Origin: Spirulina sp. CS-785/01
Lineage (GTDB): Bacteria > Cyanobacteriota > Cyanobacteriia > Cyanobacteriales > Spirulinaceae
Length of the DNA: 62,249 nt
Assembly: GCF_028330525.1 (NCBI RefSeq)
Contig: NZ_JAQMSD010000342.1
Span: 1 to 62,249, forward strand
Reading direction: 5' to 3'
Shown here: in pieces, positions 10,126 through 40,411 of the stretch
Layout: every line of letters starts with the position of its first letter
Position numbering within the stretch: position 1 is the stretch's first letter
The notes under the pieces: model-generated
The model's input: only the letters and a program-made list of their open reading frames with translations
What the model was told of the DNA's origin: nothing
The model's database searches: none
Made by a program: the position numbers and the translations under genes

Positions 10126-10650
10126 ATGACCATTCAAAAAGTTGCCATATTTACCCATGGTTTAGACGGAGGAGCATTTACCAACTTAGGAACAACCTTA
10201 GCACGGGGGTTTACTGAGTTAGGGTATCACTGTGATCTGGTGCTGCTCAAGGTTACAGAAGCGGAAAAAGCACGCTATCCAGAGTTAAATCTGGTGTCTC
10301 TTAATGTACCACGAGCGATTAGCGCGATCGGGCCACTGGTTCGTTATATCAACACGCAGCAACCCGATGTTATTTTTCCCATGCCTTGGTATTTTAACGT
10401 AGTTGCCATTTGGTCGAAGTTGTTAGCCCGCACCTCCACCAAAGTGATCATTGGCGAACATAATATTATCAGCCTAGAGGCCGGGATTGAGCTTCGTCAC
10501 CAACTGCGAATGCGTTTTCTCCCCTTTTTAATGCGCTATACCTACCCCTATGGAGATGGTTTAATTGCAGTTTGTCAGGATTCCATAACCGATCTAGCCG
10601 AAAATTTAAATATTAAACCGAACATTCCTATGGAGGTGATTCCCAATTAA
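10126..10650 (+). pseudogene. Truncated GT4 glycosyltransferase (N-terminal half)
   Basis: The 174 residues match only the acceptor-binding half of a GT-B fold, family 4 glycosyltransferase: VAIFTHGLDGGAFTNLGTTLARGF, then PDVIFPMPWYFNVVAIWSK and IIGEHNII. It stops at MEVIPN, exactly where intact family members continue into the linker and the nucleotide-sugar domain. No nucleotide-sugar domain follows in any frame before the convergent gene at 10708. It is probably inactive, though a half-domain protein cannot be ruled out. It opens the glycan cluster. Confidence 0.75.
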
Positions 10651-10707
10651 AATTGAAATAACGTTCGCTTTTCAAAGTTACGCAAGTTTTCATTTTTTAG
10701 AGTACAT

Positions 10708-11628
10708 TCATATTATTCGATTAACCTTATTTTGAATTTTATCGAGTAGATTTTTTTCTTTCATAATTTTGTTATAAAATAGTCTGTCAAATTCTCGATC
10801 AACGGCTGTAAATTCATTCCATTTGTAAGGAGTTGATAAATTAGTATTCGGGATAGACAAATCTGAATTAGCAGATGCTGTATGTGTTGCATCTTCTGAA
10901 AATCCAATATTACGAATTAAATTAACAGCCGGTACAATAAATAGTCCAGATTGAACTAAATGTGCAAATCCCCACTGATAAGCCCACCAACTGATATTGG
11001 ACGAGTTATTGTAAGTTGTCCAATATATTTTCTCCATTGTTTTAAATTGGGTATCACTAGCTAAAACATCTCGAATGCGTTTACGGATTTCATCATCTAC
11101 CCATAGTTTGATCTGGTAATCAAAATATTGCCAAGCTCTTCTCCAAGAAGCCCAGCCCCAAATCCCTCCATAATAGGAAAAGTGATAGCTTTGGATATGT
11201 GATTTCCATTCCCCCAATAAATTACTACCGGAAATTGTCATGACTCTTCGATCTTCTCGATACTGATCAAGCATTTGCTCACAAAAGTAAAAAAAATCTA
11301 AGTTCGGTAAGCAATCATCTTCTAAGAAAATTGCTTCTTCTACTTGTTCAAAAACCCATGTAATACCGCTTGATATGCGACGACCACAGCCTAAATTTTG
11401 GTCGGCATAGTTTTTGACAACTTCGCAATTCCAATCAACACGATCAATAATAGCTTTTGCTGCTTTACATTTATCGATATCTTCTGGTTTATCCGGTCGA
11501 GGGCTGTCAGCAATAACAAAAAGTTTTGGGGGTTGAGCTTGGCGGATCGCTTCAAATACTCTCTCAGTCGTTTTGGGTCGGTTAAAGATAAAGAATGTTA
11601 CTGGGGTTTTTAGAGTCCAATCAGCCAT
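10708..11628 (-). CDS. GT-A type glycosyltransferase (family 2-like)
   Basis: A 306-residue GT-A fold enzyme, of the group often annotated as HlpA-like or GNT-I-like. The N-terminus TPVTFFIFNRPKTTERVFEAI is the nucleotide-binding start. The metal-binding acidic motif is LEDDCLPN (about residues 97-104). GGIWGWASWRRAW is the conserved acceptor-loop segment. It lacks membrane segments and probably transfers a sugar onto a glycan intermediate at the cytoplasmic face. The acceptor is unknown. It is oriented against the flanking genes. Confidence 0.75.
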   Translation of the reverse strand: MADWTLKTPVTFFIFNRPKTTERVFEAIRQAQPPKLFVIADSPRPDKPEDIDKCKAAKAIIDRVDWNCEVVKNYADQNLGCGRRISSGITWVFEQVEEAIFLEDDCLPNLDFFYFCEQMLDQYREDRRVMTISGSNLLGEWKSHIQSYHFSYYGGIWGWASWRRAWQYFDYQIKLWVDDEIRKRIRDVLASDTQFKTMEKIYWTTYNNSSNISWWAYQWGFAHLVQSGLFIVPAVNLIRNIGFSEDATHTASANSDLSIPNTNLSTPYKWNEFTAVDREFDRLFYNKIMKEKNLLDKIQNKVNRII

Positions 11629-11775
11629 AAATAGTCTCCTATTTTCATTGCATTATAGCGTTAACACTTACACAATATTCACCCTAAATTGCTTTTGGGA
11701 AGGGAACTTTTAGAATTTAGAACATTTGATCTGACGATTTAAAAAAGTCAATACAAACAACTTATCTAATTTAGC

Positions 11776-11820
11776 TAAGCTGTCGCACATTTAAATTGGG
11801 ATTTTTGCTCCCTAGACCCC
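11776..11820. repeat. 45-bp direct repeat, copy 1
   Basis: The repeat starts TAAGCTGTCGCACATTTAAA and ends CTCCCTAGACCCC. It matches 12004-12048 with one mismatch. In this copy, the sequence continues into a CCCTTG/CAAGGG hairpin and ends at about 11868 with ACAGCTTAG, the inverse of the starting CTAAGCTGT. The element is thus about 95 bp with short terminal inverted repeats. Confidence 0.85.
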
Positions 11821-12003
11821 TTGCCACAAGGGATTTGGGCTAAAAAAATAAATGAATAACAGCTTAGTTTTTTTGTACTAATCAAAGATAGAGGTTATAC
11901 GCTCTGTGGTCTTAGTCAGGCAAGAATAATTTTTGAAGGATTCTGAAAATGCGATATACAAAAAAAGTTTGACATTATATTCAAAACATAATAGCATAAT
12001 AGG

Positions 12004-12048
12004 TAAGCTGTCGCACATTTAAATTGGAATTTTTGCTCCCTAGACCCC
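12004..12048. repeat. 45-bp direct repeat, copy 2 (truncated)
   Basis: The second copy of the repeat at 11776 is cut off after CCCC, where the sequence becomes unrelated. It contains a TTG in frame with the downstream methyltransferase, which wrongly extends that reading frame by 20 codons. Confidence 0.85.
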
Positions 12049-12083
12049 GTTTTCAGTTCATAAAAATCAATCATAATCCAAAA

Positions 12084-12959
12084 ATGGTGATAGACTTCAG
12101 CTATATTAACACTCGCTGGAATGATTTAAAGAAACATCCAGCTTTTAAAAAAGCTCCTGCCATTACCTTGTGGCGATTAGGGACTTGGATGGTACATTGT
12201 ACGTTTGGGGTATCGGCGGTTATTAAGTTACCGAAATGGGGCTGTAAATTTTATGTACCGCCTAAATTTAGAAGGGCTGGTTCTACGGGAATTTTTTTAT
12301 TGCGAGAAGACTATGATCCTGAGTTAGCCTATATTCAAAAAACGCTCTCTGAAGGACAAGTGTTTATTGATGGGGGGGCTAACTTTGGCATTTATACCGT
12401 TTTAGCGAGTCAAGTGGTGGGAAAGTCGGGCAAAGTGTTTGCTTTTGAACCCGGTAATGAGTCCTTTGCTGTTTTGTCACGGAATAAGAAAATTAACCAG
12501 ATGGATAATACTAAGCTCTTTCAAGCAGCATTATCTAATCAAAAAGGGGTAACCCGTCTCTATCATATTGATAATGCTCCCAATAGTTATTCCATTGGAG
12601 GTGAAGCTCAATCCCAAGGTGAATTTGAAGAAGTGGCAACAATAACGCTTGATCATTTAGCGGCTGACGAAAACTTAGAGCGTGTTGATATGATCAAGTT
12701 AGATGTAGAAGGTGCTGAAGAATTGGTGTTACAGGGGGGGCAGATGATGCTAAAGGAAATGTCGCCTATTCTGCTGTTTGAAGTTAGTAAACGGGCAATG
12801 GGAAGACTGAATTTATCTAAGGAAGGTGTGACTCGCATTTTACAAGATTTAAACTATCATTTTTTTAAATTAAATTCTGTGGGAGAACTCGTAAAAGTAG
12901 ATACTCCTCAAACAGGAAATAACATCGCCATTCCTGCGAGTAAAGATTCCTGCGAGTAA
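12084..12959 (+). CDS. FkbM family methyltransferase
   Basis: A SAM-dependent FkbM-type methyltransferase, 291 residues from the ATG at 12084. The longer frame starting at a TTG (12024) lies in a repeat element and is unlikely to be translated. SAM motif I is FIDGGANFGIYTVLA, followed by VFAFEPGNE and the conserved IKLDVEGAEELVLQGG. It presumably O-methylates a sugar of the exopolysaccharide made by the surrounding glycosyltransferases. The decayed GT4 at 12987 follows it on the same strand. Confidence 0.87.
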   Translation: MVIDFSYINTRWNDLKKHPAFKKAPAITLWRLGTWMVHCTFGVSAVIKLPKWGCKFYVPPKFRRAGSTGIFLLREDYDPELAYIQKTLSEGQVFIDGGANFGIYTVLASQVVGKSGKVFAFEPGNESFAVLSRNKKINQMDNTKLFQAALSNQKGVTRLYHIDNAPNSYSIGGEAQSQGEFEEVATITLDHLAADENLERVDMIKLDVEGAEELVLQGGQMMLKEMSPILLFEVSKRAMGRLNLSKEGVTRILQDLNYHFFKLNSVGELVKVDTPQTGNNIAIPASKDSCE

Positions 12960-12986
12960 AGTAGGTGTATAGGGGGTCTGGGTTTT

Positions 12987-13662
12987 ATGAACAGTGCAGA
13001 ACGGTTCACCGCCCCTCAACAGTCCCTCAAAATTCTCCTATCTGCGTATTCTTGTGAACCGGGTCGTGGCTCAGAGCCGGGGGTTGGTTGGAACGTGGCT
13101 TGGAAAATTGCCCAATTTCATCGGGTTTGGGTGTTGACTCGACCGGATGAGAGTAAAGCTCAAATTGAGGCTGAGTTAGTCCGTCGTCCCAACCCGAATT
13201 TACAGTTTGTTTATTTTACCGTTCCGTTTTGGGCTGGAGGATGGCAATGGGGTTTAGGCCCTAGGAATGTTCACTATTATTTATGGCAATTGCAAGCGTA
13301 TTGGGTGGGTCGTCGCTTGCATCGTCAAATTGGTTTTGATTTGGTACATCATGTGACTTATGTTCGGTATTCAACGCCGAGTTTTTTGTCACTGTTACCA
13401 ATTCCTTTTGTTTGGGGGCCAGTGGGAGGTGGAGAAACAGTCCCTCAACCGTTTTGGCGAGATTTTAGTGGACGGGCAAAACTGTACGAGCGGTTACGGT
13501 GTTTGACTCATCGTCTTGGGGAGTTAGATCCGTTTACGCATTTAACGGTACGACAGAGCCAAGTGATTAAGGCGACGCGACGACTGAGGATACGGCCAGA
13601 CGCATTCGGGGTTTAGGGGGTCAGTCGGTTCAGGTAGAATCCGCGATCGCATTAACGGATAG
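12987..13662 (+). pseudogene. GT4 remnant, N-terminal part, frameshifted
   Basis: The first 190 or so residues are a close relative of the intact GT4 at 19824: ILLSAYSCEPGRGSEPGVGW, HHVTYVRYSTPSFLSLLPIP and GPVGGGE are shared. The frame breaks near 13577: after VIKAT the frame-0 product becomes unrelated and stops at 13616. Another frame continues the homology (TEDTARRIRGLGG) to about 13660. At about 13661 the sequence changes to the middle of a different GT4. It is therefore both frameshifted and truncated. Confidence 0.85.
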
Positions 13663-14429
13663 TGATTCATGCTTGTTATCGTCAAAGTCGAGCCGCTACA
13701 TTGACGACGGCTGCCATGTTGACCACTCACCGTTTGTGGGGAACTTGGCAGAATTTGGTGGATATATATATTGCGCTAACGGAATTTGCGAGAGAAAAGT
13801 TTATTGAGGGGGGATTACCAAGTGACAAAATTGTGGTTAAGCCGCATTTTGTCTTTCCTGATCCTGGGAGGGGAAATGGTCAAGGAGGATATGCTTTGTT
13901 TGTAGGACGGTTATCTCAAGAAAAGGGTTTAGATGTGTTGTTACAAAGTTGGGAATATTTGTCCTCTGATATTCCCTTAAAGGTGGTGGGTGAGGGGCCG
14001 TTAGTGGGATATGTGAAAGAAGTCGTACAACGGTGGCCTCAGGTGGATTATTTGGGTGGTTGTACTTTAGAGGAAGTGTATCGCTTGATGCAGAAAGCTA
14101 CAGTCGTGATTGTTCCGTCGGTATGGTATGAAACCTTTGGACGGGTGGTGATTGAGGCGTTTGCGGTAGGGACTCCAGTGATTGTCACGCAAATTGGCGC
14201 GATCGCAGAATTAGTGGAGGAAGGCCGCACAGGATTACATTTTGCCTTGGGGGATGCGGAGGATTTAGCGGCTAAGGTAGATTGGATATTCTCTCATCCT
14301 CAAGCAGTAGCACAGATGCGAAAAGAGGCTCGTTTCGCCTATGAAACTCACTATACAGCACAGGTGAATTATGAAAAGTTGCTGGAAATTTACGACTTAG
14401 CACGATCGCGCAAGAATCTCAGTAAATAG
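13662..14429 (+). pseudogene. GT4 remnant, C-terminal part
   Basis: The frame (GTG at 13662) encodes the C-terminal two thirds of a GT4 enzyme closely similar to the intact one at 26088: HACYRQSRAATLTTAAML, IALTEFAREKFIEGGLPSDK, FVGRLSQEKGLDVLL and the nucleotide-sugar motif VWYETFGRVVIEAFAVGTPV. The N-terminal acceptor domain is absent and replaced by the remnant of another GT4. It could still be translated from the GTG, but a lone half is unlikely to be active. Its end overlaps the convergent GT4 at 14397 by 33 bases. Confidence 0.8.
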
Positions 14430-18444: not shown

Positions 18445-18652
18445 AGATAAAGGTGTCCTCCTATATTTAGACTATATTTAGAATATAATCCAAAAATTTA
18501 TATGATATTAAGAACTTGAGTTTATAATATATCATGTGCTTGTATCGGAAATGGGTGAGTATATAATACCTAACACGTTATTCTTCGACCCATTATTCTT
18601 GCTTTTTCATTGTTTCTTCCTAAATCGATAATCATTGTATCTTGAGGATTGT

Positions 18653-19792
18653 ATGCAAAACATCCGTATTGCTTGGTTACTTAATACTGCCTTTTTTTAC
18701 TGGCAACCTCCTCTCAGTGAATTTACAAAGCTTTTCCCAAAAACCAAAGTTTTTACAGCTTGGTGGCGGGGTTATGCTCCGGGGTACGAAAAGTTATTTC
18801 CAGTAGAAGTGGTAGGAGATAGAAAAATTATATCCCTGAAACCTAATTCTACAAGCTATGGACTTAACTTTACTGCCCTCCCTCTTCATATTGTTCGTTA
18901 TTTATTCCACTTTAAACCCAACTTAATCTTTTCTAACTCCTTTGGAGTCTGGACAGTGTTGGCTATCTTACTCCAAGATATCGGTAATTGGCGAGTGGTC
19001 ATTGCTTACGAAGGCAGTTCCCCCGTAGTTGATTACCGCAACTCTCCCTTACGTTTAGCAGTAAGGCGTTGGATGGTGAAACAGGCCAAAGCCTGTATTA
19101 CCAATAGTCAAGCGGGACAGCGATATTTAACGGACATTCTGGATGCGGACACCGAGGAGGTGTTTGTTCAACCCTACGAAGTCCCTCACCCCAACTCTCT
19201 CTTACAAAATACCCCATCTCTAGTTGATTTTACTGAACTGTCTCGACCAATTTTTCTATTCGTTGGCAGTATTGAGCCGCGCAAGGGGTTAAATTTTTTA
19301 CTAGAAGCCTGTGCGAAGCTCAATGAGCAGGGCGATCGCAACTACACACTCCTTGTAGTTGGGGATGGAGAAGAACGGCCAAAACTGGAAACCTATTGTC
19401 AGGATAACCAACTCACCGAACAAGTCAAATGGTTGGGTAAGGTCCCCTATGGGGAGTTAGGCCACTTTTTCAGAAACGCTGATATTTTTATCCTGCCTAC
19501 CCTAGAAGACACTTGGGGAGTCGTAGTTTCCGAAGCCATGATTTTTGGCACGGGAGTCCTCTGTTCTCAGTATGCTGGAGCAGTCGAACTCATTGACGAA
19601 GGAGAAAACGGATATTCCTTTGATCCCCGTAATCCCGACACCCTCAGCGAACTTATGAGGCGTTGTATTCATGATCCCTCGTTAGGTTCCCAACTGGGCA
19701 CTAAATCTCAAGAAACCATGACAAAGTACACCCCGGAAACGGCTGCTCAATTTTTAGCCAAAGTGACTCACTTTGCCCTCGACCTCTCTTAA
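18653..19792 (+). CDS. Family 4 glycosyltransferase
   Basis: A GT-B fold retaining glycosyltransferase, 379 residues from the ATG at 18653. This start has GAGGA a few bases upstream; a TTG six codons earlier is less likely. The acceptor domain has NSFGVWTVLAIL and VIAYEGSSPVVDYRNSPLRL. The donor domain has FLFVGSIEPRKGLNFLLEAC and the motif TLEDTWGVVVSEAMIFGTGV. The gene starts the plus-strand run of glycan genes and its end is 31 bases from the next GT4 start. Confidence 0.87.
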   Translation: MQNIRIAWLLNTAFFYWQPPLSEFTKLFPKTKVFTAWWRGYAPGYEKLFPVEVVGDRKIISLKPNSTSYGLNFTALPLHIVRYLFHFKPNLIFSNSFGVWTVLAILLQDIGNWRVVIAYEGSSPVVDYRNSPLRLAVRRWMVKQAKACITNSQAGQRYLTDILDADTEEVFVQPYEVPHPNSLLQNTPSLVDFTELSRPIFLFVGSIEPRKGLNFLLEACAKLNEQGDRNYTLLVVGDGEERPKLETYCQDNQLTEQVKWLGKVPYGELGHFFRNADIFILPTLEDTWGVVVSEAMIFGTGVLCSQYAGAVELIDEGENGYSFDPRNPDTLSELMRRCIHDPSLGSQLGTKSQETMTKYTPETAAQFLAKVTHFALDLS

Positions 19793-19823
19793 AATTGGAA
19801 TAACTTTCACAGATGGCTCAAAA

Positions 19824-21092
19824 ATGGAAGCTCTGAACATTTTAATTTCTGCCTATGCCTGCCGCCCAAACATGGGGTCTGAACCCGGTGTGGGTTGGAA
19901 CATTGTCTGTGAATTAGCCAAATTTCACCACCTGTGGGTACTCACTCGTCAAGATAATCGCCCTTTTATCGAAGCCGCACTCCCCCAAGACTCCCCCAAT
20001 CTCCATTTTGTCTATTGTGATCTGCCGGGCAGTTCACTTTGGAAAAAAGGATTAGGTGGGGTTCATCTCCATTATTATCTCTGGCAAATTCGTGCTTATT
20101 TTGTAGCGCGTCAACTTTATCAAGAGAAACCGTTTGCCCTTGCCCATCATGTCACTTATGTACGCTATTCCACGCCGAGTTTTCTCTCTCTGTTGCCAAT
20201 TCCCTTGATTTGGGGGCCGGTGGGTGGGGGAGAAACGGCCCCTCGTGCCTTTTGGCAAGATTTTAGTTTTCGAGCTAAAGTGTACGAAATTTCGAGAACG
20301 CTATTGCGTCAATTGGGCGAAATCGATCCCTTTGTGCGTTTGACAGCGCGGCGGAGTCGTTTGGCCTATGCCACTACCCCAGAAACTGCCCAACGACTGT
20401 CGGCGTTAGGGGCTAAACAGGTGGAACTGTTGTCTCAACTGGGGTTATCTCAAGCTGAACTTGCTCACTTTCAAAAGTTGTCGTCCACCTCTATATCCGA
20501 TAAGTTTCGCTTGGTGAGTATTGGCCGTTTATTACATTGGAAGGGGTTTTATTTGGGGTTGAGGGCTTTTGCTCAAGCCCAGTTACCAGAAGCAGAATAT
20601 TGGATTGTGGGAGATGGGCCGGAGCGATCGCATTTGCAACAACTCGCCCAAGACTTAGGGATTGGGGAGCAAGTGAAATTTTGGGGGGAATTACCTAGAG
20701 GGGAGGCGATCGCCAAACTCACTCAAGCCCACGCCCTTGTTCATCCCAGTTTACATGACTCCGGAGGAGGTGTTTGTTTAGAAGCGATGGCAGTCGGTCG
20801 CCCTGTCATTTGTTTGGCCTTAGGTGGCCCTGATAGTCAAGTAACAGAAGAAACAGGCTTTAAAATTCCAGCTTGTACTCCCGAACAAGCAACCCAAGAC
20901 ATGGCAAAAGCGATGTTGCGTTTAGCGCAAGACCCCAAACTCGGTCAGCATCTTGGTCAGGCTGGAAGACAACGGGTACACAATTTGTATAGTTGGAGTC
21001 AACGGGGTAAGACCCTAGCCAATATCTATCAGATGTTGAGCGCGGAAACTGACAATCAAAACCCTAAAGAAGTTGAACGTTTATCCAGATAA
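19824..21092 (+). CDS. Family 4 glycosyltransferase
   Basis: An intact GT4 enzyme, 422 residues from the ATG at 19824; an upstream in-frame TTG at 19773 lies inside the preceding gene and was rejected. The N-terminal SAYACRPNMGSEPGVGWNIV and HHVTYVRYSTPSFLSLLPIP are the acceptor domain; FRLVSIGRLLHWKGFYLGLRA starts the donor domain; LHDSGGGVCLEAMAVGRPV holds the donor-binding acid. It is the full-length counterpart of the broken copy at 12987. Confidence 0.88.
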   Translation: MEALNILISAYACRPNMGSEPGVGWNIVCELAKFHHLWVLTRQDNRPFIEAALPQDSPNLHFVYCDLPGSSLWKKGLGGVHLHYYLWQIRAYFVARQLYQEKPFALAHHVTYVRYSTPSFLSLLPIPLIWGPVGGGETAPRAFWQDFSFRAKVYEISRTLLRQLGEIDPFVRLTARRSRLAYATTPETAQRLSALGAKQVELLSQLGLSQAELAHFQKLSSTSISDKFRLVSIGRLLHWKGFYLGLRAFAQAQLPEAEYWIVGDGPERSHLQQLAQDLGIGEQVKFWGELPRGEAIAKLTQAHALVHPSLHDSGGGVCLEAMAVGRPVICLALGGPDSQVTEETGFKIPACTPEQATQDMAKAMLRLAQDPKLGQHLGQAGRQRVHNLYSWSQRGKTLANIYQMLSAETDNQNPKEVERLSR

Positions 21093-21294
21093 ATCAAACG
21101 GTCACAAAACACTAACTTAGCTACAGTAGATCAACTCCGGTCACAATGACTTGAGAACAGCTTAGTAACTCTGTCTTGTTTTCTAAATTTATATACCATT
21201 GTCTAAATTTATAGGATATAGTAGTCGTTAATTTAAACCTCAAAGACTGCAAAATTCTCATTTTTGTTACAGTACGTACATTTAAGCAGCAATC

Positions 21295-21891
21295 ATGTTA
21301 AGTCCCTTATTCTCTAAAGCCGCCCATAAAATTGCTATAGTTCAGAGGAGTCTTGCAACATCGATTCGGAAATTAACGGGTAAAAGTGACTACAAAAAGT
21401 GGAGTCAACCCAATGAGTTATCTCCCGATTGGGATCGCAGAACCCAGAAAATAGCGACGCTAATTAAACCTCAATCTTCAGTTTTGGAGTTTGGTGCTGG
21501 AAGGATGATTTTAAAGCAATTTTTACCAGAAGGTTGCACCTATATTCCCTCTGATCTGGTAGATCGAGGACAAGACACACTGGTTTGTGATCTAAACAGC
21601 AATGCACTCCCACAATTTCCCACTTGTGATGTCGCCGTGTTTAGTGGTGTTTTTGAATATGTCCATGATGTTCCACGACTCATTTACCATATATCAAGTT
21701 ACGTTGATGTAGTCATCGCATCCTACGTAGTGAGCGACATTGAACCCACCAATCGCCGAATGCAAGGATGGGTGAATGATTATACATCTGAAGAAATCCT
21801 TCAAATCTTTGAGAGGTCTGGTTTCCTCTGTGACTATCAAGAGGAAGCATTTTCTCAAATAATTTATAGATTTATTAAAAAGAATCAATAA
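21295..21891 (+). CDS. Class I SAM-dependent methyltransferase
   Basis: A short 198-residue Rossmann methyltransferase. Motif I is VLEFGAGRMILKQFL, with an acidic residue in IPSDLVDR (motif II) and DVAVFSGVFEYVHD corresponding to motif IV. The C-terminus SEEILQIFERSGF resembles UbiE-like small-molecule methyltransferases. The target is unknown; it probably decorates the glycan or a lipid carrier. It is AT-rich and 201 bp from the preceding gene. Confidence 0.75.
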   Translation: MLSPLFSKAAHKIAIVQRSLATSIRKLTGKSDYKKWSQPNELSPDWDRRTQKIATLIKPQSSVLEFGAGRMILKQFLPEGCTYIPSDLVDRGQDTLVCDLNSNALPQFPTCDVAVFSGVFEYVHDVPRLIYHISSYVDVVIASYVVSDIEPTNRRMQGWVNDYTSEEILQIFERSGFLCDYQEEAFSQIIYRFIKKNQ

Positions 21892-22002
21892 ATCCTGTAT
21901 AAAAGAATTTAAAAATCCGATATTGTTTTGATTTTTCAAGTCCTAAAGATTCGTTTTAATTCACATAAGGCAAAAAAATAATTTATTTACGAGAGGCTCA
22001 AA

Positions 22003-22860
22003 ATGACTACACTCCAAGATAAATACAATCGTACTGAAGCACAAATTCGTCATCATTACGAAGTCGAGAAAGAACTCGCTAATCGTTTACGGAATTCGAC
22101 GAAAGAAGAACGTAAACATCTTTATAATGATGTTTATGATGAACTGTACCAGAAAATCCCCCATGAACCACTGGTAGAGCGCACTAATAACCCCGAAGCT
22201 CAAGCCTGGGTTGCCAACCAACGCCTAGAATTGTTAGGAGAGTTTTTAGCACCTGATAAAACCTATGGGGAAATTGGACCAGGAGATTGTTGTGTTTCGT
22301 TAGCTGTAACTCAATACGTTAAACAAGTTTACGCTATTGATGTTTCCCAAGAAATTTCTAAAAAAGTTAAAACGCCTGATAACTTTAAATTAGTTTTATT
22401 TGATGGTTGTAATATTCCTTTACCTGAAAATAGTCTAGATATTGTCTATAGCAACCAAGTGATTGAGCATTTACATCCTGAAGATGCTCTAGATCAAATT
22501 ACCAGTATTTTCCAAGTTTTAGCACTAGGAGGATTTTTAATCTGCATTACCCCTCACCGTTTATCTGGACCTCATGATATTTCACAATTTTTTGATCAAG
22601 TTGCTACCTGTTTTCATTTGAAAGAATATAGTATTAAAGAACTTTATCAAGTTTTGTATAAAGCAGGATTCGGAAAAATTTGGCTGTATAAAAGCTATAA
22701 AAAGACACATTTCAAGTTACCGTTAAATCCATTAACGTTAACCTTGGTAGGAGCAGTAGAAGGAATTGTTGGGAGTTTACCGTTTAAATTAAAACGGAAA
22801 GTAGCTCGCTTACCCCTTCTCTTCCGAGGAATTACCATGGTTGCTCAGAAAGGTACATAA
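22003..22860 (+). CDS. SAM-dependent methyltransferase
   Basis: A 285-residue class I methyltransferase with a long helical N-terminal extension (about 1-75) rich in Glu and Arg. Motif I is YGEIGPGDCCVSLAV, then VYAIDVSQEIS and IVYSNQVIEHLHPEDAL. ICITPHRLSGPHDIS is typical of the glycan-cluster methyltransferase group. A GAGAGG ribosome binding site precedes the ATG. The next GT4 follows by 12 bases, so the two are likely co-transcribed. Confidence 0.8.
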   Translation: MTTLQDKYNRTEAQIRHHYEVEKELANRLRNSTKEERKHLYNDVYDELYQKIPHEPLVERTNNPEAQAWVANQRLELLGEFLAPDKTYGEIGPGDCCVSLAVTQYVKQVYAIDVSQEISKKVKTPDNFKLVLFDGCNIPLPENSLDIVYSNQVIEHLHPEDALDQITSIFQVLALGGFLICITPHRLSGPHDISQFFDQVATCFHLKEYSIKELYQVLYKAGFGKIWLYKSYKKTHFKLPLNPLTLTLVGAVEGIVGSLPFKLKRKVARLPLLFRGITMVAQKGT

Positions 22861-22872
22861 TTTAATTAAAAT

Positions 22873-24015
22873 ATGCCTAACTCTAACTCAAATATTCTTT
22901 TTTTCTCAGGACGACTGCTTCCTGCATCAGAAACGTTTGTCAAAGCGCAGGGGGAACAGTTAAGAAAATATACTCCTTACTATGTCGGTTCTCGTCTAGT
23001 GTCGGGGTTAACGCTACCTTCTGAACAAACCCGAGTTGTTAATTCAGGGGGAATATGGGGAAAAGCTCAGGAAGCAGCTTTTAAATTATGGGGAGTTGCT
23101 CCTAGTTTTTATAACAACCTGAAAGCATTAAAGCCATGTTTAATTCATGCTCATTTTGGAGTCTGTGGGGGGTTAGCTTTACCTGTGCAGAAACAATTAA
23201 GAGTCCCTCTCATTACAACGTTTTATGGTTTGGATGCCACCATGACGGATGAGTATGCTAAAAAACATTCTCTTAGTACCAACGTTTATTTACAGCGTCG
23301 AGAACATTTAAAACAAAACGCCAATTTGTTTATTGCGGTTTCTGAGTTTATCAAGGATAAACTGCTAGCGCAAGGGTTTCCCGAAGATAAAGTGATTGCT
23401 CACTATTACGGTGTTGATACTCAGCAATTTCAAGCTGATCCCACTATCCCCCGTGAACCCATTGTTTTATTTGTTGGACGTTTTACTGAGAAGAAAGGAT
23501 GTGAATATCTCATTAAAGCAATGGCACAAGTCCAAGAACAAGAGAATGAGGCAGAATTAGTATTAGTGGGAGATGGGAAGTTAAAAGCGGAATTAGAATC
23601 TTTAGCTGCTCAGTGTTTACGTCGCTATCAATTTTTAGGCTTTCAACCCTCTTCAGTCGTTAAACATTGGATGAACCGTGCCAAAATTTTGGCCGTTCCT
23701 AGTGTAACCGCAGCCAATGGTGATTCAGAGGGACTCCCAACAGTTATTGTTGAAGCACAGGCCATGGGATTACCTGTTGTGGGGTCAATTCATGCTGGTA
23801 TTCCCCAAGCGGTTTCCCATGAAGAAACAGGGTTTTTAGCAGAGGAGCGAGATTGGCAATCTTTAGCTCAATATATTGTTACATTGCTCAAGAATGACGA
23901 AATTTGGGGGAATTTTAGTCAGAACGGAAAACAACGGATGCGAGAGCATTTTGATTTACAAAAACAAACTCAAAAACTCGAACAGATTTATGATTCTGTT
24001 TTATTAAAAGAATGA
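22873..24015 (+). CDS. Family 4 glycosyltransferase (WcaL-like)
   Basis: A GT-B glycosyltransferase of 380 residues, similar in plan to the colanic-acid WcaL group. The N-terminus has ILFFSGRLLPASETFVKAQGE. HAHFGVCGGLALPV and ITTFYGLDATM are characteristic of the subgroup. The donor domain has VLFVGRFTEKKGCEYLIKAM and GDSEGLPTVIVEAQAMGLPV. It is tightly packed between the methyltransferase (12 bp) and the truncated acyltransferase (4 bp). Confidence 0.88.
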   Translation: MPNSNSNILFFSGRLLPASETFVKAQGEQLRKYTPYYVGSRLVSGLTLPSEQTRVVNSGGIWGKAQEAAFKLWGVAPSFYNNLKALKPCLIHAHFGVCGGLALPVQKQLRVPLITTFYGLDATMTDEYAKKHSLSTNVYLQRREHLKQNANLFIAVSEFIKDKLLAQGFPEDKVIAHYYGVDTQQFQADPTIPREPIVLFVGRFTEKKGCEYLIKAMAQVQEQENEAELVLVGDGKLKAELESLAAQCLRRYQFLGFQPSSVVKHWMNRAKILAVPSVTAANGDSEGLPTVIVEAQAMGLPVVGSIHAGIPQAVSHEETGFLAEERDWQSLAQYIVTLLKNDEIWGNFSQNGKQRMREHFDLQKQTQKLEQIYDSVLLKE

Positions 24016-24019
24016 AAAT

Positions 24020-24541
24020 ATGGAAGACAAAACAGAAAATTTAGCGTTTAATCAGCGTATTTTTGCCCTTGACTTTCTCAAGGCAATTAGTATTGCTGCT
24101 GTGGTCTATTATCATTCTATGTTTTTTCCGATTTCAACGTATAGTCAAGTTGCGATCGCAGAATTAATTCTCTCAGCACCCCTCAGATTTTGTGTCCCGC
24201 TTCTACTCACACTTTCTTTTATTTTATTTGAGCATAAACTACAGAAAACAGAAACAGTTTTAAGATTAACTCGAAAACGCTTAAACCGAATTCTAATTCC
24301 TACAATTTTTTGGTTTTCTCTAGCCGCTATATTGCAACTAATTAAAGGAAATAGTTTTTTAAAAATTAGTCAAGCCGTTTCCTTACTACTTCGTAATTTT
24401 ATAAAAAATATTGATACGCTCAATTTTAATTTTTTTGAGCTACTGCTTATAAAAGGAATTAGTTGGATTTTTTTATTGGCAATATCTTTAAAATTGTCTA
24501 TATTACTAGAACGATGCCAATTAGCTAGTTGTGTTCGTTAA
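24020..24541 (+). pseudogene. Truncated acyltransferase 3 (OafA-like)
   Basis: The 173 residues are the N-terminal part of a membrane O-acyltransferase of the acyltransferase 3 family: ALDFLKAISIAAVVYYHSMF is the first membrane helix, with the His expected in this family, and RKRLNRILIPTIFWF is the conserved basic loop and third helix. Full-length members have around ten helices over 330-400 residues, while this product ends after about four. The tail ILLERCQLASCVR looks out of frame. It is therefore probably a remnant; the end runs into the next gene's upstream region. Confidence 0.7.
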
Positions 24542-24548
24542 AAACGAT

Positions 24549-25979
24549 ATGACTTTTAAAACACCACAAAAACCAAAAAGTAAAACTTACATTCAAATTT
24601 CAATTTTAGTTCTGTTTGCCTTTAGTTCAGCTTTTTTTTCTAGGGTTTTAGAATTAATCAAATTTCCTTCTATTATTAATTTAGTTCATTACGGAATTAT
24701 CCCTGCAATATGTCTATTTACGCTGATCAAAACCCGCGTTAAAAATCGCCAACAAATTTTTATTACTTATCAACTGCTAATTGCAATTATTTTATTTTTT
24801 TTGATCAATGTTGTTAGTGCTTTTTATAATAATGCCGGATTAATTAATGCTTGTCTGAATTTCCTATTTTTTGCAGAACATTTTTTGTTAGTGTTGGCAA
24901 TTGTTTGCTTACCTTTAACTGTTAAAAAGCTAAAACTTTTCAGAGCTTATATTATTTTTTCTTCTTTGATCAATATTATTTTTGCTTATATTCAATTTTA
25001 TGTTTTACAACTTCAATATCATCATGGCTTAAATGATAATATAAAAGGAGTTTTTGTCGGAGGAGGGGCGGGTCATGTTGTGGGGGCTTCTGTGGCTCTA
25101 ACCTTCAGTCTTTATTACTTTGCCGCCGCTAAAACACTACCAATTTGGTTTAGAGTTTTTATGGTTTTAGCTGCCTTTTGGCACATGAATATGGCGGATG
25201 CTAAACAAGTTATTTTAGCTTTAGGAGTGGCTGGAATTATTCTGTTATTTACAAAATTAAATAACCCAATAGAAGCGATTAAGTTGATTGGGGGTGGGGT
25301 AATTTTAGGCTATATTTTTTGGTGGGCAGTGCAGAATGTGGAAGCCTTAGATGCCTTTAATACTTGGATGCGACCTGAAATTTATGGGCCAGAAGGAGAA
25401 GCGACCTTGCTGAAATCGGCAACGTTTCGCATTGTCCCAGAGTATTATAACTCCCCCCTACATCCTTGGATTGGCTTGGGTCCAGGCCATACTGTAGGCC
25501 GCTTAGGAGGATGGATGTTAGCCCAATATTCTAGTCTCTTAGCTCCATTAGGATCAACTCAACATCCTGCTAGTGGTGCAGTATGGCAGGCGGTTGGGGC
25601 AAGTTGGCTAGGGGATCAATCGAGTATGTTTTCCCCTTTGTTTGGTTGGGCAGGAATTTGGGGGGACTTGGGGTGGTTAGGACTCGCTTCGTTTCTCTAT
25701 ATCTGGTGGGTGGTGTGGAATCGGTTGTGTGTGGATGATGTGTCGCGCTATATTGCTTTGACTCCTATGGTATTTGGGTTGATTTTCACGCAGATGGAGG
25801 AGCCAGGGTATATGCTTTATATTGGCTGTATTATTGCCCTGCGATGGCAAGAACACCACGTTCGGAAGCAGAGAGCCAAGTTAGGAAATACTGTACCACC
25901 TCCTTCTTTAGAAGAAATTAAACATCCTAAAACTCCTAAAGACTGGCTGAAAAAAATCTTACTACTGGATGCTCCCTAG
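24549..25979 (+). CDS. Wzy/O-antigen ligase-like membrane protein
   Basis: A 476-residue integral membrane protein with about 10-12 hydrophobic segments. A large extracytoplasmic loop lies at about 270-370 (ATLLKSATFRIVPEYYNSPLH, then GLGPGHTVGRLGG). This topology and the glycan context suggest a polysaccharide polymerase or ligase, but there is no strong motif and the family is highly variable. The ATG at 24549 was chosen over a GTG at 24531 that overlaps the preceding remnant. The C-terminal tail is soluble and basic. Confidence 0.7.
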   Translation: MTFKTPQKPKSKTYIQISILVLFAFSSAFFSRVLELIKFPSIINLVHYGIIPAICLFTLIKTRVKNRQQIFITYQLLIAIILFFLINVVSAFYNNAGLINACLNFLFFAEHFLLVLAIVCLPLTVKKLKLFRAYIIFSSLINIIFAYIQFYVLQLQYHHGLNDNIKGVFVGGGAGHVVGASVALTFSLYYFAAAKTLPIWFRVFMVLAAFWHMNMADAKQVILALGVAGIILLFTKLNNPIEAIKLIGGGVILGYIFWWAVQNVEALDAFNTWMRPEIYGPEGEATLLKSATFRIVPEYYNSPLHPWIGLGPGHTVGRLGGWMLAQYSSLLAPLGSTQHPASGAVWQAVGASWLGDQSSMFSPLFGWAGIWGDLGWLGLASFLYIWWVVWNRLCVDDVSRYIALTPMVFGLIFTQMEEPGYMLYIGCIIALRWQEHHVRKQRAKLGNTVPPPSLEEIKHPKTPKDWLKKILLLDAP

Positions 25980-26087
25980 AATGTGCCGGATCACTAGACT
26001 AAAGTAAGTAATAAGAGAGCGAGTTGTTAGGAGGCTTGTATACTCGATGACATTTCAAAATACTGTTGGTTGAACAAGGAGAGCTTC

Positions 26088-27254
26088 ATGCACATTTTGA
26101 GCGTGCATAATTACTATCAAATTCGGGGAGGAGAAGATGAGTCCTGTGATTCAGAAATTCGCCTTTTGCGGGACAATAATCACCAAGTTTCAGTCTATCA
26201 CGAACATAACGATCGCATCAAAAAATTATCCAGTCTAGAAGCCGCCCAACGCACCATCTGGTCACAGGAAGCCTATCGCCATATCCAACAAACTTTAGCT
26301 GAAAAATCCCTCGATCTCATCCACGTCCAGAACTTTTTTCCCCTTATTTCCCCCTCTATTTATTACGCAGTCCAAGAGAGTCAAACCCCTATTATTCAAA
26401 CTCTACGAAATTATCGTTTACTGTGTCCCAATGGTCTCTTTTTTCGGGATGGCCGGGTGTGTGAAGACTGTTTAGGGAAACCCATTCCTTACCCTGGGGT
26501 GCAGCATTCCTGTTATCGGGATAACCGCGCAGCGAGTGCGACAACGGCGTTAATGTTAACTGTACACCGTTTGCTCAATACTTGGTCAGACCGGGTTAAC
26601 CTCTACATTGCACTCACCCAGTTTGCGCGACAGAAATTTATTGAAGGGGGACTTCCGGCTGATAAAATTGTTGTGAAGCCCAATTTTGTTGCACCAGACC
26701 CCGGTATGGGGACGGGAAAAGGGGGATATGCCATTTATGTGGGCCGGTTGTCGGTTGAAAAAGGGTTAGATACCCTGTTGGCCGCATGGGAAAGGTTAAA
26801 GACTCCTTATCCCTTGAAAATTGTGGGGGATGGGCCATTGAGTGAGGTGGTGAAGGATGCAGAAACGCGAGTTGCGGGGGTGGAATGGGTGGGCCGTCGG
26901 CCTTTGGAGGAGGTGCATCAGTTGATGGGAGAGGCCACCATGCTGATTTTTCCCTCGAAATGGTATGAAACCTTTGGCCGGGTGGCCGTGGAAGCATTTG
27001 CGAAGGGGACCCCGGTTATTGCGGCCAATATTGGCGCGATCGCGGAATTAGTGCAAGATGGTGATACGGGGTTACATTTCCGGCCCGGAGATGCAGAAGA
27101 CTTGGCCAGTAAAGTAGATACGTTACTCTCTAACCCCCAACAACTCGGAAAAATGCGCGAAACCGTGAGAGCAGAATATGAACAGAAATACACGGCACAA
27201 CAAAATTATCATCGGTTAATGGAAATTTATCAACAAGCTAGGGATAATGGATAA
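26088..27254 (+). CDS. Family 4 glycosyltransferase
   Basis: An intact GT4, 388 residues. The ATG at 26088 has AAGGAG about 7 bases upstream; the in-frame TTG six codons earlier is rejected. The acceptor domain starts HILSVHNYYQIRGGEDES. QTLRNYRLLCPNGLFFRDG and the Cys-containing ...CEDCLGKPIPYPGVQHSCYR segment are typical of this cyanobacterial subgroup. The donor domain has IYVGRLSVEKGLDTLLAAWE and WYETFGRVAVEAFAKGTPVI. The C-terminal two thirds are duplicated in the remnant at 13662. Confidence 0.9.
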   Translation: MHILSVHNYYQIRGGEDESCDSEIRLLRDNNHQVSVYHEHNDRIKKLSSLEAAQRTIWSQEAYRHIQQTLAEKSLDLIHVQNFFPLISPSIYYAVQESQTPIIQTLRNYRLLCPNGLFFRDGRVCEDCLGKPIPYPGVQHSCYRDNRAASATTALMLTVHRLLNTWSDRVNLYIALTQFARQKFIEGGLPADKIVVKPNFVAPDPGMGTGKGGYAIYVGRLSVEKGLDTLLAAWERLKTPYPLKIVGDGPLSEVVKDAETRVAGVEWVGRRPLEEVHQLMGEATMLIFPSKWYETFGRVAVEAFAKGTPVIAANIGAIAELVQDGDTGLHFRPGDAEDLASKVDTLLSNPQQLGKMRETVRAEYEQKYTAQQNYHRLMEIYQQARDNG

Positions 27255-40387: not shown

Positions 40388-40411
40388 CCAATTTAAATGT
40401 ACAACAGCTTA
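40388..40411. repeat. Inverted partial copy of the AAGCTGT repeat
   Basis: The complement of CCAATTTAAATG...AACAGCTTA reads TAAGCTGTTGTACATTTAAA, matching the first 24 bases of the repeats at 11776 and 12004 with two differences. This supports a dispersed family. Confidence 0.65.

Follow-up and report, generated by a model that had tools for sequence, protein, structure and literature searches.

The window analysed here, the whole 62,249-nucleotide contig NZ_JAQMSD010000342.1 of Spirulina sp. CS-785/01, contains what looks like a cyanobacterial sugar-polymer gene cluster. One stretch of it (12987-14429, plus strand) holds two neighbouring open reading frames (ORFs), each resembling only part of a GT4 glycosyltransferase, which raises the question of whether these ORFs are genes at all and, if not, how they came to lie head to tail. 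The initial annotation had described a head-to-tail chimera of two GT4 remnants, and the analysis, which is based on one assembly of 351 contigs, confirms this description. With a probability of roughly 85%, the stretch is a dead chimera (pseudogene) that arose through one internal deletion in a co-oriented pair of GT4 genes.

Anatomy of the remnant

Between 12987 and 13661 the stretch corresponds to the N-terminal half of a GT4 glycosyltransferase of one kind (here called the N type), and from 13662 onwards the sequence corresponds to another GT4 type (the C type). In a BLASTP comparison with nine proteins of the window, ORF 12987-13616 matched the product of ORF 19773-21092 with 58% identity over 186 residues (E = 4e-73), and ORF 13662-14429 matched that of ORF 26070-27254 with 62% identity over 249 residues (E = 5e-113), the latter match spanning residues 144-392 of the 394-residue protein. 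The crossed comparisons gave noise level for the N half against the 26070 gene (E = 3.1) and only generic GT4 similarity for the C half against the 19773 gene (E = 2e-7), and the other GT4 genes of the cluster reached far lower scores with ORF 13662-14429. A DNA search of the strain's own genome returned, besides the stretch itself, two matches, namely the 19773 gene (81% over 143 bases, 20145-20287) and the 26070 gene (67% over 537 bases, 26604-27140).

Comparison of reading frames with the relatives locates the lesions. The N-terminal half runs in frame 0 over 12987-13581, and at 13572-13581, where one 5-base word stands twice in tandem, the N-type homology switches from frame 0 to frame 2 (at about 13577-13581), which bears out the earlier view that this half is frameshifted. 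The homology continues in frame 2 over 13582-13661, to approximately residue 210 of the intact protein, and ends within the interval 13652-13661, to which the deletion junction and the second frame change are assigned. ORF 12987-13616 overruns the end of the frame-0 homology, with its stop at 13614-13616. The C-terminal two thirds of the C-type gene, identified by BLASTP, Pfam and relatives, occupy 13662-14429 from residue ~138 of ~387, with 255 stop-free codons in frame 0 and a Pfam Glycos_transf_1 domain (PF00534, E = 9.8e-32, profile positions 16-170 of 172). In every C-type relative compared, the homology starts at 13662, corresponding to residue 138 to 151 of the intact proteins; the coordinates first given for the stretch, and its switch point near 13661, are thus accurate.

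Because two frame changes and three frame-0 stops lie between the halves, 12987-14429 is regarded as a remnant rather than a working GT4 member, and no unbroken frame of the stretch contains both GT-B halves. Irrespective of how the 5-base repeat is judged, the junction joins the C-type sequence to the N-type gene out of frame. Under the general GT-B layout, which we take to apply here, the first half is without the donor-sugar domain and the second without most of the acceptor-side domain; judged from the sequence, neither half should yield a working enzyme. A GCGATCGC word is found at 13643-13650, immediately ahead of the junction interval. A role of this word or of microhomology in the deletion was considered and found no support: comparison with the DNA of relatives revealed no clear microhomology at the junction, and these relatives are too diverged in DNA to tell.

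Decay is hardly visible beyond the lesions. Changes at near-invariant columns were found in 0 of 34 for the N half and in 3 of 56 for the C half, compared with maxima of 6 and 7 among intact members (one N row and three C rows, partial or very distant, having been set aside for this count), and both halves show coding-type composition by codon position. Since the conserved residues and this composition are kept, the lesions are probably recent relative to the divergence from the relatives. An attempt to use decay as a clock gave no signal, the halves being as conserved as intact genes. The end branches in the tree are longer for the N half (0.45) and the C half (0.64) than for the intact paralogues (0.31 and 0.33), which fits some relaxation of constraint without proving it.

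Intact paralogues in the window and intact pairs in other genomes

BLASTP, Pfam and tree placement identify an intact N-type paralogue at 19773-21092 (plus strand, likely start 19824) and an intact C-type paralogue at 26070-27254 (plus strand, likely start 26088). Intact relatives are therefore present in the same cluster, as had been noted initially; on sequence grounds these two genes are paralogues of the halves, not demonstrated parents, the N half rejecting such parentage and the C half being unplaced (see below). Apart from these two paralogues, the strain's own genome contains no sequence related to the missing halves at family level. A probe for the lost N-type part retrieved the 19773 gene (60%) and 19 other matches of just 25-34% identity, one of which is the chimera's own C part, and a probe for the lost C-type part retrieved the 26088 gene alone (58%).

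Among 291 genomes, own genome included, the N type occurs in 113 (E = 1e-30 or better) and the C type in 64 (E = 1e-50 or better). In at least 25 of 80 named loci, a complete C-type gene comes immediately after a complete N-type gene in the same orientation; this is a lower bound, because the flanks extend to no more than 6 kb and are cut short in some contigs. The same adjacency is found in nine further-surveyed genomes (L084 to L092); the two sets overlap and are not additive, since L089/L162, L090/L148 and L092/L163 are probably the same contigs. L114 and L159 are likewise probably one contig. Compared with intact pairs, the stretch missing from the remnant amounts to ~1019 bases (L084), 1024 bases (L085) or 1202 bases (L114), as worked out by hand from coordinates.

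Among the closest comparators are Nostocales cyanobacterium HT-58-2 (L129), Tolypothrix sp. FACHB-123 (L130) and genome G093 (L084), in which intact genes of the two types adjoin each other with unchanged order and orientation; the G093 pair is 67% (N) and 61% (C) identical to the halves. These pairs differ from the remnant in that both genes are whole and the flanking genes are others. The version with both genes whole, which the initial annotation had suggested looking for, thus exists as adjacent pairs in other genomes, whereas a relative with the remnant's own flanking genes was not seen among the 59 genomes compared, which include no other member of the same genus, and the L-numbered and named loci (gene order was surveyed there except for part of L097 to L102).

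A full-length homologue with the same N/C combination, the finding that would have spoken for a real gene, was also sought. The 80 named loci, which are the best 80 of 412 from an alignment-based search of contigs, contain 699 ORFs of at least 150 residues, and none of them scored above 100 bits with both halves; the same both-halves test found none among ORFs of at least 200 residues in L024-L123. A contig scan with a single protein query returned no relative. Of these best 80 of 412 named records, 79 have titles without a non-cyanobacterial bacterial name, and the remaining one is a metagenome bin labelled Flavobacteriales. An 808-residue open frame in G111 was considered as a fusion of two whole genes and discarded, the L088 ORFs being separate (419 and 385 residues).

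Phylogeny of the two halves

Removal of repeats left 52 of 73 ORFs for the N type and 45 of 67 for the C type, among them the chimera's own halves (L054), which entered the trees under the name of the window. The N-type tree has 53 rows and places the N half in a clade of 34 (support 98/96) that excludes the 19773 gene, and a single clade of the N half with the 19773 gene is rejected (AU p = 0.0097). Inside this clade lies an open 24-row group (94/90) that contains both the N half and L084, a locus with an adjacent C-type gene; the same group also contains many N-type genes that have no adjacent C type, e.g., L106, L110 and L117-L121.

A second tree was built from N/C pairs, comprising 22 of 26 adjacent pairs from named loci and 13 hand-chosen earlier pairs, some of them non-adjacent. 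It left out L154 (a near copy of L159), L198 (a distant C gene), and L162 and L163, which are the same contigs as L089 and L092, the matching L089/L092 pairs being absent as well. This tree puts the N half in a 15-row clade (96/90) with 14 other members, all of them directly adjoining a C-type gene, a pattern that is partly by construction because adjacent pairs alone entered from the named loci.

The C half is less firmly placed. Neither its grouping with the 26070 gene (AU p = 0.199) nor that with the L084 C-type gene (AU p = 0.449) is rejected, and its grouping with L084 and L114 together is disfavoured (AU p = 0.038). Its long branch (0.85) in the pair tree arises from an open fork, and the highest identity of the C half is 63%, to L129. 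Given the p value of 0.199 and the open fork, the C half could still stem from a lineage close to the 26070 gene. Parentage by genes of this cluster is thus rejected for the N half and compatible with the data for the C half.

Origin of the chimera

Two features expected of a chimeric pseudogene made by deletion are found here: the parts come from two different genes, and the parent types are adjacent elsewhere, on the same strand and in the order head then tail. In the proposed ancestral state, an N-type GT4 gene would have stood at this place with a C-type gene next to it, downstream and in the same orientation. A deletion of ~1.0-1.2 kb, presumably a single event, would then have taken out everything from the middle of the N-type gene, across the gene border, to one third of the way into the C-type gene, and would have joined the remaining parts out of frame, probably with loss of function. 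The tandem repeat at 13572-13581 is a second lesion, which shifts the frame of the N half too.

The initial annotation had offered deletion fusion or recombination, of which the former is supported as the best reading and a recombination of the cluster's own genes is disfavoured. In such a recombination, partial copies of the 19824- and 26088-type genes would have been joined near 13661, and the presence of both types in the same cluster, together with the AU test that tolerates a grouping of the C half with the 26070 gene, speaks in its favour. However, the protein identities to these genes are just 58% and 62%, and the clade that would unite the N half with the 19773 gene is rejected. Moreover, no copying step is needed, because the N and C types are already adjacent elsewhere. 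Recombination among the cluster's own genes is thus considered unlikely.

Artefacts have also to be weighed. If the junction were created during assembly, the living strain would carry two whole genes, and the draft state of the genome lends this idea some plausibility; a misassembly should, however, leave the missing halves on some contig, but in the own genome the probes found such halves in the two paralogues only, and the neighbouring truncated GT4 gene at 10126 is decayed as well, which makes an assembly chimera very unlikely. A real single gene that contains one sequencing or assembly frameshift would agree with the uninterrupted C part and with the conserved residues kept in both halves, but it would have to accommodate two separate frame changes, one of them at the junction, and three frame-0 stops between them. 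Its halves, moreover, belong to two types found side by side, and no examined ORF combines them. With the junction itself out of frame, a single gene is hardly credible and is rejected. The preferred reading, a deletion within an adjacent N-C pair, carries a practical warning for annotation, namely that 12987-13616 and 13662-14429 are not to be listed as two genes.

A truncated third glycosyltransferase gene and a probable second cassette

The remnant is probably wider than first stated and takes in a truncated third GT4 gene at 10126-10650 (plus strand), recognised by Pfam Glyco_transf_4 and by relatives, which comprises the N-terminal 174 residues of a 374-385-residue protein. Its homology stops at residue 174-177 of the relatives, exactly at its stop codon; a Glycos_transf_1 domain was not found in the ORF, and the rest of a gene of this type gave no further match up to 13050. 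Homologues of the 10126 type occur in 8 of 290 other genomes (E = 1e-40 or better). In six of these (G125, G144, G153, G166, G181 and G199) the homologue immediately precedes an N-type gene; in G098 it precedes one on the same strand at a greater distance, and in G002 it is located elsewhere. Eight of the 80 named loci also contain it, and in 8 of 8 it immediately precedes the N-type gene; for this reason 10126-10650 probably belongs with the chimera. The two counts overlap, as L137, L162 and L163 are probably contigs of G144, G125 and G181. In the tree, the N types that adjoin 10126 homologues sit in the sister group of the group that holds the chimera's N half, so the link between 10126-10650 and the chimera is likely, not proven.

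From the sequence, 10126-14429 is best understood as what remains of a second cassette of three glycosyltransferase genes, to which the N-C pair would have belonged, while a homologous cassette at 18635-27254 appears to have been kept. Genome G181 (L092) has two cassettes in opposite orientation, one like 18635-27254 of the window and one in the order 10126 type, N type, C type, and by analogy this two-cassette arrangement is likely to have been the former state here. A more tentative idea, which we regard as possible and somewhat doubtful, is that the 10126, N and C types form a conserved cyanobacterial unit for one fixed stretch of a surface polysaccharide, and that this genome is losing the unit stepwise, with the 10126 type shortened and the N and C types fused, and the homologous cassette retained. 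If so, a comparison between the cassettes could reveal the sugars that each contributes.

This debris is broken up by an ORF on the opposite strand (10708-11628), two copies of a repeat and an FkbM-family methyltransferase gene. The last of these lies between the two remnants at 12084-12959 (plus strand), with its start placed from the L122 relative (the ORF is listed from 12024). Just before it stands a 49-base direct repeat, 96% identical (11772-11820 and 12000-12048), with a weaker 20-base match at 40389-40408 on the minus strand. The repeat was considered as the mark of a mobile element and dismissed, as the genome contains only two copies of it (44-base pattern, up to 3 mismatches). The ORF at 10708-11628 (minus strand, 306 residues) lies just past the truncated GT4 and has a low third-codon-position G+C of 0.27; it gave no Pfam or NCBIfam match at E = 0.001 and no relative in its own genome at E = 1e-10. 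In the kept cassette, the 173-residue ORF 24020-24541 covers only positions 3-126 of 326 of Acyl_transf_3 and is probably another truncated gene.

Comparison with known systems

In a literature search, the listings and the opening parts of abstracts contained no description of this remnant, which does not prove that none exists. The remnant is an ordinary trace of gene loss, made unusually clear by the intact pairs in other cyanobacteria. With these comparators, it illustrates how a set of glycosyltransferases may be lost when a deletion strikes within a gene pair, and not through recombination with the paralogues that survive.

Chimeric pseudogenes formed by deletion between adjacent genes are a known general kind. 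As in these, the front of one gene is attached to the end of the gene that follows it, the frame is lost and the DNA between is absent. The present case does not differ in kind; its parents are two GT4 types, and its junction is without a clear shared word. Gene remnants are also known in bacterial polysaccharide gene clusters of the O-antigen type, in which, as here, glycosyltransferase remnants are left while related intact genes stay. In contrast to those clusters, the relatives here are cyanobacterial, and it is the intact pairs of other genera that show the loss.
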